Shown one piece after another: positions 2,837 through 11,932 of a stretch of DNA of 12,123 bases. Origin of the DNA: Nitrospinota bacterium (lineage in GTDB: Bacteria > JADFOP01). The stretch's first letter is position 1. Each line of letters opens with the position of its first letter. The notes beneath the pieces were generated by a model. The model was not told the origin of the DNA. It did no database searches and saw nothing but the letters and a program-made list of their open reading frames with translations. The translations under genes were made by a program, and so were the position numbers. Where the stretch lies: NCBI GenBank assembly GCA_022562795.1, contig JADFOP010000053.1, positions 1 to 12,123 of the forward strand, written 5' to 3'.

Positions 2837-2908
2837 TCAAGGACTTAAGGCCGAACGCGCGGTCACAAAAAAAGCCTTCAGGCAATAATGGCGAGCCTTA
2901 AAGGCCAT
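2837..2908 (-). CDS. Candidate 23-residue leader peptide of the response-regulator operon
   Basis: ATG 2908 is preceded by GGGAGGTG with a 5-nt spacer, the strongest ribosome binding site in this region. The ORF runs MAFKARHYCLKAFFVTARSALSP and stops at 2837, 22 nt before the next ORF. There is no run of one amino acid as in classic biosynthetic attenuators, but it is basic and contains Lys, Arg, Phe and Cys. The terminator-like hairpin lies almost wholly within this ORF, so ribosomes translating it would melt the hairpin. Seen in sequence: the Shine-Dalgarno, ORF and hairpin. Inferred: an attenuation role. Confidence 0.4.
   Translation of the reverse strand: MAFKARHYCLKAFFVTARSALSP
2867..2906 (-). 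terminator. Intrinsic-terminator-like hairpin inside the leader of the response-regulator operon
   Basis: Read on the minus strand, GGCCTT and an inner AGGC pair with GCCT and AAGGCT around an 11-nt loop, with a small internal loop, and the stem runs straight into seven T residues. No complete longer gene lies upstream on this strand, so the hairpin would end a transcript of about 75 nt started at the candidate promoter at 2951-2980. It is therefore an attenuator or the end of a short RNA. Confidence 0.5.
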
Positions 2909-2913
2909 TTGAA

Positions 2914-2937
2914 CACCTCCCGACCGTAGAGGGGGAG
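2914..2937 (-). promoter_or_regulatory. Hairpin that can hide the leader-peptide ribosome binding site
   Basis: On the minus strand CTCCC (2937-2933) can pair with GGGAG (2921-2917), the core of the leader ORF's Shine-Dalgarno, across an 11-nt loop. The stem is only 5 bp but GC-rich. It would make leader translation conditional. Confidence 0.3.
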
Positions 2938-2950
2938 ACTTTCTACCATA

Positions 2951-2980
2951 AATATACTTCCTCTATCGTCGTCTTCGCAA
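2951..2980 (-). promoter_or_regulatory. Candidate promoter of the leader / response-regulator transcript
   Basis: Minus-strand TTGCGA (2980-2975) and TATATT (2956-2951) are separated by 18 nt, with 4/6 and 5/6 matches to the sigma70 consensus. The start would be near 2944, just ahead of the Shine-Dalgarno hairpin and the leader ORF. Confidence 0.4.
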
Positions 2981-3042: not shown

Positions 3043-3074
3043 TTATCCACAGATGTGGACAATCTTGTGGATAA
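3043..3074. promoter_or_regulatory. Cluster of three DnaA boxes
   Basis: TTATCCACA (3043-3051) is a perfect DnaA box on the plus strand. TGTGGACAA (3054-3062) is a one-mismatch box on the minus strand. TGTGGATAA (3066-3074) is a perfect minus-strand box. They are only 2-3 bp apart. A degenerate fourth (TGTGGGGAA, two mismatches) lies at 3152-3160. The last box overlaps the likely -35 of ldcA. Such a dense cluster suits a DnaA-controlled promoter, a DnaA-titrating site or part of a replication origin. No dnaA, dnaN, gidA or rpmH gene is visible nearby, so an origin is not established. Confidence 0.6.
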
Positions 3075-3093
3075 CCCCTAAATATTGTATCCT
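3056..3093 (+). promoter_or_regulatory. Probable promoter region of the ldcA-mpl operon
   Basis: Two overlapping candidates exist: TTGTGG (3065-3070) -17- TATCCT (3088-3093), and TGGACA (3056-3061) -17- TAAATA (3079-3084). Neither is strong, and both overlap the DnaA boxes. The leader would be 85-100 nt and includes the 3100-3127 hairpin. Confidence 0.35.
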
Positions 3094-3099
3094 CCCCAG

Positions 3100-3127
3100 A
3101 TGAGGCCACAGCCCGTTGGGGCCTCAT
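3100..3127 (+). repeat. 8-bp inverted repeat in the ldcA leader
   Basis: ATGAGGCC and GGCCTCAT pair perfectly around a 12-nt loop. No T-run follows, so it is not a standard terminator; it may be an mRNA hairpin or a protein-binding dyad. Confidence 0.35.
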
Positions 3128-3183
3128 GCCTCCATACTGAGAATCAGAAGTTGTGGGGAAAATTCGCTCCATGAGCTCAAACC

Positions 3184-4107
3184 ATGCCACTTAAGAGACC
3201 ACCGACCTTACAAAAGGGAGATCGGGTGGCCCTACTCGCCCCCGCAGGGCCCGTCTCGCGCCGTGCCCTGAGCGAAGCCCGAGCTTCCCTGAGCGCCCTC
3301 GATCTGGTCGTTGAGACTAAAGGGGAGCCCACCGCCAAGCTCCGCTACCTTGCGGGGCCAGATGAGGCTCGGGCAGAGGCCCTCCACGAGGCCTTCGCCG
3401 ACCCCGCCGTCCGGGCAATTTTTGCTCTGCGGGGCGGCTACGGGACGACCCGTCTGCTGCCGCTGCTCGACCTTGGACTCATCCGGGCCAACCCGACCAT
3501 CTTCGTAGGCTCGAGCGACGTTACAGCGTTGCTCACCGCCCTGGTCCAGCAGGCGGGCCTCGTGGCCTTCCACGGCCCCTCCGCCACCGAGCCATTCTAC
3601 CGCGAGTCCGACCCAGAGGTCTTAAAGCGCTTCTGGAGCCTCCTCAGCGTGCCTGAGCCACTGGGGGAGGTCCGCCCTTCGGGGCTTAGGGTTTTGAGGG
3701 GAGGCCGGGCCCGAGGCCGCCTCATGGGCGGATGCCTCTCCCTGCTTGCCGCAACAGCCGGCACACCCTGGCAGCTCAATGCTCGCGGGGCGGTCTTATT
3801 TCTAGAAGACGTGGACGAAGCCGCCTACCGGATTGACCGGATGCTTACCCAGCTATCCCAGGCTGGGGCGCTGGAGGGTGTCGTGGCCGTCGTTGTGGGA
3901 GAGATGGTCCGCTGCCCCGTGCCCCAGGGGGAGGCCTGGAGCCTCGACGACGTCCTCCTCGACCGTCTCGGCCCGCTGGAGGTGCCCATCCTGGCGGGGT
4001 TTCCCGCCGGCCACGGCCGCAATGAGGTGGTCTTGCCCCTGGGGGTTGAGGTAGAGGTCGACGCCGAGGCGGGCCTGCTCACCGTCTTAGAGGCCGCTGT
4101 CTCATGA
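3184..4107 (+). CDS. ldcA: LD-carboxypeptidase (peptidase S66, murein tetrapeptide carboxypeptidase)
   Basis: This family removes the terminal D-Ala from cytoplasmic murein tetrapeptides to give L-Ala-D-Glu-mDAP tripeptide for recycling. The 307-residue length is typical. The S66 hallmarks are present: LRGGYG at residues 82-87, nucleophile S111 in GSSDVTALL, E208 in LFLEDVDEAAYRIDRML, and H277 in PAGHGRNEVVLPLG, giving the Ser-Glu-His triad. There is no signal peptide, as expected for a cytoplasmic enzyme. ATG 3184 is the only usable start because a stop lies in frame at 3172-3174; no clear Shine-Dalgarno precedes it. The gene opens an operon: its stop overlaps the next start by 4 bp. The adjacent mpl, whose enzyme uses the LdcA product, supports the call. 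Confidence 0.93.
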   Translation: MPLKRPPTLQKGDRVALLAPAGPVSRRALSEARASLSALDLVVETKGEPTAKLRYLAGPDEARAEALHEAFADPAVRAIFALRGGYGTTRLLPLLDLGLIRANPTIFVGSSDVTALLTALVQQAGLVAFHGPSATEPFYRESDPEVLKRFWSLLSVPEPLGEVRPSGLRVLRGGRARGRLMGGCLSLLAATAGTPWQLNARGAVLFLEDVDEAAYRIDRMLTQLSQAGALEGVVAVVVGEMVRCPVPQGEAWSLDDVLLDRLGPLEVPILAGFPAGHGRNEVVLPLGVEVEVDAEAGLLTVLEAAVS

Positions 4108-8551: not shown

Positions 8552-9865
8552 TTACCGGTTCAGCAAAATCCGCAGGTAAGATAGCTCGCGTGGGATCTCT
8601 TGGTCTTCGCAATAGTTGTTGGCCGCCAGGACCTGAAGGTCTTTCATCACCCGCTCGTCGCCCTCGAAGACGACCGTCTCCGACCCCTTCTCAGCAAGAA
8701 GCCAGCCAGCCTCCAGCAGCGCCATGACACTCTTGGCGCTGTACCGCTCCGACCCCACCAGGAGATATACGTCTGTGCCGAACTCGTTGACAATTAAGGA
8801 GATATAGGTGGCCGGGCGGGCGTGGAAACCCAGAGGCTTTGGCAGGGGCAATTCCACCCGCTCCAGGCGGGCGTAGCTTGTCAGCAACGCCTCGGCGCAC
8901 CGGTTGGCTTTCTCAAGGTAGGTGACGGCGGCTTGGTAGAGGTGGTTGATGGCGTGGTTGAGGAGCTCGCTCTTGTCTACGAAATCGTCCATCCGCTTCT
9001 TTACTTGGCTGCTACGAATAGGGTCGAGGTGGCGTTCGTAGAAGTGGACGACCCAGCGAAGAGCCTCCAGCAAGTGGAGGCTTGTGGCGCACGTGCCCCG
9101 CAGGCGGGGAAGAGAGGCGTGCTCGGCCTCCAGAGCGGTGCGGCTCACGTAGGTGTCGTAGTCAGATTGGATGCCTTGAAGGAGGTTCTTGATTTTCTGG
9201 ATTTTTTTAACGTCGAGCTTGGTTGGCACAACCTGGATAAGCTCATCGGCCGCGAGGCCGGGCAGGAGCCCGAAATCGCGGGTCAAGCTGTAGACCTTGC
9301 GCACCTTGCGCGCGAGCCCCAGCATCCGGGCATCCCCCTCCTCCACCTCGACTTGCTCGCCGGTTCGAGGCAGCTTGCCCTCTAGCCGAGCATCGGTGGA
9401 ATCCGGGGCCAGCGGATCCACCGCAGGCAGAGTCAGACCCAGCTCCTCAGCCTCCCTGCACGCTTCCTGTGCCAGTCGTCGCAGCGACTCGTTGAGGAAC
9501 GCCATCGTTATGCCGAGCTCCTTGAGGAACCTGCGATCATCAGCTTCTAGCTCCTCAATATACCGGCGTTCAAAGCGGTCCAGGATATGTCGGACGTGGA
9601 AGGAAGCGATGCCGAGGTTGCGGATCGAGGCTACAAGCTCGGTGTGATATTCCCAGGTGGCGTTTTCTCGGGCGCCGTGGTCGTCGAGGTAGGTTTCGTA
9701 GGCGCGCGCCTCGTTGAGCAGGGTGGAGTACTGGTGTTTGGTGTAGGATGGCGGAGCAGACAGTAGGCCCTGGAGGGCCGCGAGGAAAGGCCGCGAGGCA
9801 CCCTCAGCTTGGCTTAGGAACTCGTCGAGGCGGATCCCGACTCCGTCGGCTACAGGTTCGTCCAT
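8552..9865 (-). CDS. HPr-like phosphocarrier domain fused to a long helical N-terminal region
   Basis: This protein has 437 residues from ATG 9865 (GGGGGTG 6 nt upstream). The last ~100 residues form an HPr-like domain: the active-site histidine H348 in LGFHARPATYISLIVNEF matches His15 of PTS HPr. KSVMALLEAG contains S379, exactly 31 residues later, the same spacing as His15-Ser46. HPr is about 88 residues; here about 335 residues precede it, with no signal peptide. They are predicted mostly helical and charged (RFERRYIEELEADDRRFLKELG, a break near 145-180, then KKIQKIKNLLQGIQSDYDTY), of no family I recognise. In the known PTS, EI phosphorylates the His and HPrK/P the Ser; neither gene is in the window. 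It is probably a regulatory phospho-protein rather than a plain sugar-transport carrier. It is monocistronic behind a strong promoter. An upstream GTG at 9901 is less likely as start. Confidence 0.85.
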   Translation of the reverse strand: MDEPVADGVGIRLDEFLSQAEGASRPFLAALQGLLSAPPSYTKHQYSTLLNEARAYETYLDDHGARENATWEYHTELVASIRNLGIASFHVRHILDRFERRYIEELEADDRRFLKELGITMAFLNESLRRLAQEACREAEELGLTLPAVDPLAPDSTDARLEGKLPRTGEQVEVEEGDARMLGLARKVRKVYSLTRDFGLLPGLAADELIQVVPTKLDVKKIQKIKNLLQGIQSDYDTYVSRTALEAEHASLPRLRGTCATSLHLLEALRWVVHFYERHLDPIRSSQVKKRMDDFVDKSELLNHAINHLYQAAVTYLEKANRCAEALLTSYARLERVELPLPKPLGFHARPATYISLIVNEFGTDVYLLVGSERYSAKSVMALLEAGWLLAEKGSETVVFEGDERVMKDLQVLAANNYCEDQEIPRELSYLRILLNR

Positions 9866-9912
9866 GAGCTGCACCCCCGTCGGGGACAGGCACGCGCGCA
9901 CCTTCTGCTTTA

Positions 9913-10244: not shown

Positions 10245-10319
<75 letters not shown>

Positions 10320-10329
10320 GATTAATCAA

Positions 10330-11475
10330 TTACTTACCGTCCTGTACTTCTTCTAAGGCCCGCTCAAAACCCTCGATTGTGCCCAATTTTGTGCCCACAG
10401 AGGCGTGAAAAGCGTCCAAAGAGCGGGCCGCTTGCTCTAGGTCGGACTCACTCGTGATGTTGTAGCGGTCAAAGATGCTTCGGCTTTGGTGGCCTGAGAT
10501 CGCCATAGCAACCCGCTCTGGTACCCCTGAACGGACAAGGTTTCGTATTGCGCTTCGGCGTAGGTCGTGGAACAACAGACCACTATATACCACCTTGCCC
10601 TCTCGTTTCTCTTTCTTGCCTAATCCGACCTCAACACAGGCGGTCTGCCACGCCTTCTTAAAGCCCTTGATAGGCTGACCATCTCGGACAAAGACCTGTT
10701 CGACATCGGGCCAATGCCAGTCCCGTTGAGCTTTAATTTCGGCTAGTGCCCTGTAGAGTTCTTCAGCAAGGGGTATCGTCCTGGCCGTTCGGGTTTTCGT
10801 GTCCGACGCTTCGAGACGCACTAGCCGTCCTTGCAAGTCCACCTGTGACCACCTAAGGCCGAGAATCTCACCAAGGCGCATCCCTGTAAAGTATCCCATG
10901 GTTAAAATTGGCTTCACGTGCGACGGCAAGGCCGCCTTAAGGGCTAGGTATTCTTCACGCTCTATAAAGCCCTCTCTCGCATTGTTCTCACGAAGCAAGC
11001 GGATGTGGGGGGCCGAAAGTGCCTTCGGCGGGGTAGATGTTTTAGCAAGGCTGTAGGCCCGCTTTAGCAAGGATAGCTCACGGTTGATGCTTGCGTCAGA
11101 GGGTGGCCCCCCTCGGCGGGTTGTCATGCCCCTTCGCTTCGTTATGTAGGTGTTGACGTGCGCCGTGGTGATTTGCGAGCCTCTCAGGCCCCCGAAGAAG
11201 GCCTTGAGCTTGCTTGCAGAGAGCCTAACCCTCTCTACTGATTTGCCATTCGCCTCATAGTCCGAAATAACATCGTCGAGCAATTCGGCAACCGAAATGC
11301 GCTCAACCCTTAGTGATAGCGGCATACCCGTAGCGACCCGCCCCTCTCGTTCTTTCAGTAATTTCACGGCCTCACCCTTCTTAGTGCTGCCGCTGCTTTC
11401 TCGGTGAGGCCTGCCATGAACATGAAATTTTATCCACCAATACGGTGAGCCTTTTCGTCTGTAAACGCTACCCAA
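10330..11475 (-). CDS. int: Tyrosine recombinase / phage-type integrase
   Basis: This 381-residue site-specific recombinase should integrate and excise the island at tRNA-Thr. An N-terminal arm-binding-like start (MGSVYRRKGSPYWWIKFHVHGR, 1-22) is followed by a SAM-like core-binding domain (about 60-145) and the catalytic domain (about 165-355). The catalytic set is complete: R200 (TGMRLGEILGLRW), K227 (SDTKTRTAR), H303 and R306 (FHDLRRSA), H329 (ISGHQS) and nucleophile Y338 (FDRYN). The start is TTG 11475, the only option after an in-frame stop at 11482-11484. It lies 2 nt past the stop of the RHH gene, with GGTGAG at ribosome-binding distance, so translation is coupled. The gene ends 11 bp from the tRNA, and its 3' end carries a tandem TGTGCCC pair that may be arm-type binding sites. 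Confidence 0.95.
   Translation of the reverse strand: MGSVYRRKGSPYWWIKFHVHGRPHRESSGSTKKGEAVKLLKEREGRVATGMPLSLRVERISVAELLDDVISDYEANGKSVERVRLSASKLKAFFGGLRGSQITTAHVNTYITKRRGMTTRRGGPPSDASINRELSLLKRAYSLAKTSTPPKALSAPHIRLLRENNAREGFIEREEYLALKAALPSHVKPILTMGYFTGMRLGEILGLRWSQVDLQGRLVRLEASDTKTRTARTIPLAEELYRALAEIKAQRDWHWPDVEQVFVRDGQPIKGFKKAWQTACVEVGLGKKEKREGKVVYSGLLFHDLRRSAIRNLVRSGVPERVAMAISGHQSRSIFDRYNITSESDLEQAARSLDAFHASVGTKLGTIEGFERALEEVQDGK
10378..10396 (+). repeat. Tandem TGTGCCC pair within the 3' end of int, putative recombinase arm sites
   Basis: TGTGCCC occurs at 10378-10384 and 10390-10396 (12-bp period), the second continuing ACAG. It lies about 60-80 bp from the tRNA 3' end. It encodes the repeated GT(K)LGT in the integrase C-terminus, so coding constraint could be an alternative explanation. 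Confidence 0.4.
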
Positions 11476-11731: not shown

Positions 11732-11932
11732 TCATGGGCTTTCTCTAAATTTGTGGCGCTCTATGAAGTCGTCTAGGTCTTCTCGGTCAAAGTAAATTTT
11801 GCGGTTGAATTGAACATAGGGCAGGGTGCCTTTCCATTGAAGCGCTCTCAGCGTCCACGGGGATATGCCCAGAAATTGTGCTGCCGTCTTTACGTCGAGT
11901 AGTCTAGGGTGGTCAACGGATTGTCTATCCAT
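11732..11932 (-). CDS. Excisionase / AlpA-like MerR-type helix-turn-helix protein
   Basis: This 66-residue protein is a single winged-helix HTH_17-type domain. LLDVKTAAQFLGISPWTLRA (11-30) is the helix-turn-helix, then LQWKGTLPYVQFNRKIYFDREDLDDFIERH (31-60) gives the wing and closing helix typical of excisionase, AlpA and Cox-like proteins. Such proteins bend attachment-site DNA for excision or activate int. ATG 11932 has only a weak AGAG ahead of it, and a 6-bp GC hairpin lies 11 nt upstream in the leader. It is separated from the RHH gene by 80 bp that hold the dyad and a second promoter. The role as recombination directionality factor is inferred from size and neighbour int. Confidence 0.82.
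   Translation of the reverse strand: MDRQSVDHPRLLDVKTAAQFLGISPWTLRALQWKGTLPYVQFNRKIYFDREDLDDFIERHKFRESP

Follow-up and report, generated by a model that had tools for sequence, protein, structure and literature searches.

A candidate translation-controlled leader attenuator ahead of a stand-alone response-regulator gene in a Nitrospinota bacterium

Organization of the leader region

The window (the whole stretch of 12,123 nt analyzed here, one of the 84 contigs in which a genome of 2.15 Mb with a G+C content of 60% is assembled) harbors a short leader ORF that encloses a terminator-like hairpin and precedes a response-regulator gene. The question raised by this locus is whether the leader decides the expression of the regulator. 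A preliminary description had proposed either an attenuator in which translation of the leader decides on read-through or a regulatory RNA of ∼75 nt. Located on the minus strand, the locus occupies part of the divergent region that separates the LD-carboxypeptidase gene (3184-4107, plus strand) from a minus-strand gene for an exported protein, the congener homologue of which is a long ORF. In minus-strand order, it consists of a promoter-like pair, the CTCCC/GGGAG repeat, a Shine-Dalgarno (SD) sequence, the ATG, the leader ORF with the hairpin-T7 inside, ORF57 and the receiver gene (Table 1). The SD, both ORFs and the receiver gene were found as described earlier. No co-directional gene is present upstream of the leader, the next upstream gene being divergent. 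Hence, the terminator-like stem ends no annotated gene and could only shorten a transcript begun within the same intergenic region.

Table 1. Features of the leader-ORF57-receiver locus.
Feature	Position	Strand	Remarks
Promoter-like pair TTGCGA-18-TATATT	2980-2951	-	9/12 consensus; expected start near 2944
CTCCC/GGGAG hairpin over leader SD	2937-2917	-	-11.1 kcal/mol
Shine-Dalgarno GGGAGGTG	2921-2914	-	5 nt before leader ATG (2908)
Leader ORF, 23 codons, MAFKARHYCLKAFFVTARSALSP	2908-2837	-	Read from sequence
Terminator-like stem (2906-2873) and T7 (2873-2867)	2906-2867	-	Inside leader ORF
ORF57, 57 codons	2814-2641	-	Overlaps start of receiver gene by 23 nt
Single-domain receiver (response regulator), 122 aa	2663-2295	-	PF00072, E 3.2e-22

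The promoter-like pair showed a PSSM score of 9.4, and since intergenic DNA reaches such a score 0.23 times per 300 nt, the pair, though present, is weak evidence by itself. The ribosome-binding site stood out more clearly. The duplex of the leader SD with the 16S tail was estimated at -14.8 kcal/mol, as compared to -11.6 kcal/mol for the receiver gene and -4.0 kcal/mol for ORF57. Within 110 kb of intergenic strand-nt, 13 sites combine GGAGG, ATG and an ORF (10-80); the leader site alone is overlapped by a T6 or longer run. The hairpin proposed to mask this SD is present, but its stability was no better than that of shuffled sequence (z -0.08).

As in a leader attenuator, a short ORF with a ribosome site is thus found in the 5′ leader, its translation being predicted. 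The codon usage of the leader ORF was not coding-like (z 0.77, p 0.22), and the peptide is devoid of any amino-acid codon run. The codon usage of ORF57, on the other hand, resembled that of real genes (z 4.5-4.7; 4.7 before the overlap), and by this measure ORF57 looks coding. Its product is acidic, and neither a homologue nor a family was found in relatives, Pfam, NCBIfam or plasmids. An alternative extension of the receiver frame to a TTG start did not show gene-like codon usage (z -1.6). A second promoter-like pair, TTGAAC-19-TATGAT, was located at 2840-2810 on the minus strand, 3′ of the T7, and could by itself drive the receiver gene.

The terminator-like element

The stem closes directly on the seven Ts inside the leader ORF, in agreement with the preliminary description. 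The hairpin-T7 folded with -14.9 kcal/mol (z -2.3 vs. shuffles). A census of T7 or longer runs in 371 kb of the genome returned 27, i.e., 10 intergenic and 17 coding; a hairpin at or below -12 kcal/mol preceded 3 of the 10 intergenic runs (leader included) and none of the coding ones. Both the leader SD and the hairpin-T7 are therefore unusual for the host genome, and their overlap is unique within the 371 kb sampled. With its loop of 11 nt, the stem escaped a strict terminator scan that allowed loops of up to 8. The z-score and the census together point to a predicted intrinsic terminator lying between the leader start and the structural gene, as would be the case in a leader attenuator.

With its first base, the 5′ arm of the stem takes up the third position of the leader start codon, and 42 nt separate the leader AUG from the end of the T-tract. 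The free RNA was predicted to form two hairpins, the second ending at the U-tract. When positions -15 to +15 around the leader AUG were blocked, the terminator stem disappeared from the fold, i.e., in silico, a ribosome so positioned would exclude folding of the terminator.

The minus strand at 2904-2835 also carries four copies of the motif CCTTnAR, for which 0.24 are expected per 300 nt. This cluster, partly within the stem, is the only one in 371 kb of the genome and may represent an operator.

Relatives of the locus

The host class is represented in the genome collection by three genomes, namely, this one, a congener (G001) and a more distant one (G002). In the congener, both flanking genes are kept, and ∼0.25 kb of unrelated DNA takes the place of the leader, ORF57 and the receiver gene. 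A search of 98 genomes with the leader DNA revealed only the leader itself, with no homologue, the next matches having E-values of 0.005 or worse. The leader-ORF57-receiver arrangement is hence confined to one sequenced species. With so few sequences, the absence from relatives is no disproof of an attenuator. The cassette 2295-2900 occurs in this genome only while the congener flanks are intact, a pattern of recent gain or of loss of a duplicated receiver.

The receiver protein matched only distant receivers in the genome collection (mostly at 31-44%, the best at 52% over a part), and these did not provide an orthologous set of upstream regions for alignment; a viral scan gave no match. A paralogue with 53% identity is present in the same genome (contig C12) and a relative with 49% identity in the congener (contig C444). 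Both of these adjoin a GAF-type histidine kinase gene and a phosphofructokinase gene (named by reading translations), and a receiver in a further genome (G007) directly follows a kinase gene. None of these three qualified as a counterpart of the locus. Since the nearest relatives are kinase-linked, the receiver of the window is a diverged, orphan, lineage-specific copy of a kinase-linked regulator.

Proposed mechanism and alternative explanations

The likeliest reading, to which a probability of roughly 0.42 is assigned, is that of a cis-acting leader attenuator, i.e., a premature terminator opened by a ribosome at the leader start. Transcription would begin near 2944, and by default, the hairpin at 2906-2873 would fold and the polymerase would stop in the T7, giving an RNA of ∼78 nt. 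A ribosome bound to the very strong SD while the RNA polymerase is still near would hide the 5′ arm of the stem; the terminator would thus be blocked, and read-through into ORF57 and the receiver gene would follow. The net effect would be a switch that is off by default and released once a ribosome binds. The control variable would be leader initiation, set by ribosome supply, polymerase pausing or SD access, and not amino-acid codons, as the peptide lacks a codon run. An amino-acid attenuator of the trp/his type was rejected, as neither a codon run in MAFKARHYCLKAFFVTARSALSP nor a mutually exclusive antiterminator in the folds was found.

The attenuator is favored by the rarity of both the hairpin-T7 and the SD, their unique overlap, the loss of the terminator from the blocked fold, the lack of an upstream gene on this strand that would account for the terminator, and a coding-like ORF57 that overlaps the receiver gene. 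It is disfavored by the restriction to a single genome, the shuffle-level SD hairpin and the neutral codon usage of the leader; moreover, the TTGAAC-19-TATGAT pair, if used, would uncouple the 78-nt RNA from the receiver gene. Repression of terminators by nearby ribosomes has been demonstrated in experiments on tR2, and the pyrBI attenuator has been discussed in the same terms (PMC4824070). Such repression is, however, rare for terminators that fall in the first 100 bp of an ORF, where the ribosome still lags behind the polymerase (PMC4824070). Here, the T-tract is just 42 nt away from the AUG, so that attenuation would require either a pause or very rapid initiation. Of the two outcomes proposed at the outset, the geometry accommodates both translation-dependent attenuation and a terminated RNA, of ∼78 rather than ∼75 nt, with no upstream gene that the terminator could serve; what did not hold up was the contribution of the SD-masking hairpin, which is at chance level.

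It is rather unlikely, though a serious contender, that the arrangement is due to chance or is a relic, in which case a lineage-specific stretch would contain an SD-ATG by coincidence and a terminator with little or no activity, with ORF57 and the receiver gene transcribed from downstream. The missing leader in the congener, the common promoter score and SD hairpin, and the neutral leader codons are all in keeping with this, whereas an intergenic hairpin-T7 and an SD with ATG that are each rare and also overlap would not be expected by chance. A stand-alone, trans-acting small RNA of ∼78 nt, with the receiver gene on its own promoter TTGAAC-19-TATGAT and the leader ORF incidental or dual, is an unlikely explanation. 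It would account for the size and the architecture of promoter, two hairpins and U-tail, for a free-RNA fold of two hairpins that ends at the U-tract, and for the promoter-like pair behind the terminator; but a strong SD before an ATG is superfluous for an sRNA, no second copy or homologue was found among the 98 genomes, and no Rfam family was matched at gathering score, only sub-threshold chance matches (E of 1 or more) being obtained. Across the window, only the tRNA passed the Rfam gathering cut-off.

A structured 5′ UTR of ∼145 nt (2944-2800), with a three-way junction resembling a riboswitch, is very improbable. In this fold, the CTCCCCC would have two mutually exclusive pairing partners, the leader SD and the GGAGGAG where ORF57 starts, and the MFE was -51.3 kcal/mol (z -3.0; 2/200 shuffles). 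The antisense strand, however, scored comparably (z -2.3), fixed 145-nt windows reached only about -1, and there are no relatives with which to compare it. As the ends were chosen after the fold had been seen and the antisense strand scores similarly, the fold was given little weight.

Returning to the attenuator, a stricter form of it would have ribosome binding alone, independent of elongation or stalling, switch on the orphan response regulator, the terminator stem beginning inside the start codon. In this improbable form, the leader would sense the supply of free ribosomes directly and pass it on to two-component signaling.

Comparison with known leader systems

In Streptococcus gallolyticus, the pil1 locus is switched on when its leader is translated into the terminator (PMC3894217). 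The present leader is similar to pil1 in that translation into a premature hairpin terminator would lead to read-through with no amino-acid codon run involved (PMC3894217); it differs in lacking repeats and phase variation, in a terminator that starts at the leader start codon, and in a downstream gene that is a regulator. With E. coli pyrBI, it shares an intrinsic terminator within the leader ORF, where the ribosome-polymerase distance sets the outcome (PMC4824070). The pyrBI leader gene, however, comprises 135 bp with polymerase pausing sites (PMC4824070), whereas the present T-tract lies 42 nt from the AUG, and any pausing here would be conjectural. A short leader peptide and a terminator before an operon are also found in attenuators of the trp/his type, but the cognate codon run and the defined antiterminator hairpin are absent here. 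Default termination would release a short 5′-leader RNA like the terminated 5′ UTR RNAs that act as sRNAs (PMC7815308), although unlike these, it has no known target or homologue.

The mechanism class is already known, and a stand-alone regulator as its target would be less usual. If the attenuator reading is true, the amount of a stand-alone receiver protein would be coupled to translation capacity in a bacterial lineage that has been sampled poorly, and leader attenuation would extend past biosynthesis, resistance and surface genes. The locus would also offer a compact test case for antitermination controlled by initiation rather than by stalling.

Other features of the window

Upstream of the leader, an 89-bp element (3043-3131) is 92% identical in the congener, while the surrounding intergenic DNA has diverged. 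It contains facing DnaA-box sequences, TTATCCACA-N14-TGTGGATAA, along with an AT-rich stretch, and the box pair occurs once each in this genome and in the congener. From its sequence, the element could be a putative DnaA-binding or origin element. Against an origin, dnaA is located elsewhere (contig C21), adjoining its own weaker boxes; the GC skew of the congener contig showed no clear turn.

A 449-aa protein encoded at 8555-9901 has an HPr-like domain at the C-terminus and a long N-terminal part without assignment. At 10245-11475, a tRNA gene precedes a tyrosine recombinase gene of opposite orientation, and a small protein encoded at 11732-11932 appeared excisionase-like by eye. The tRNA, the tyrosine recombinase and the excisionase-like protein together likely mark the end of an integrated element.
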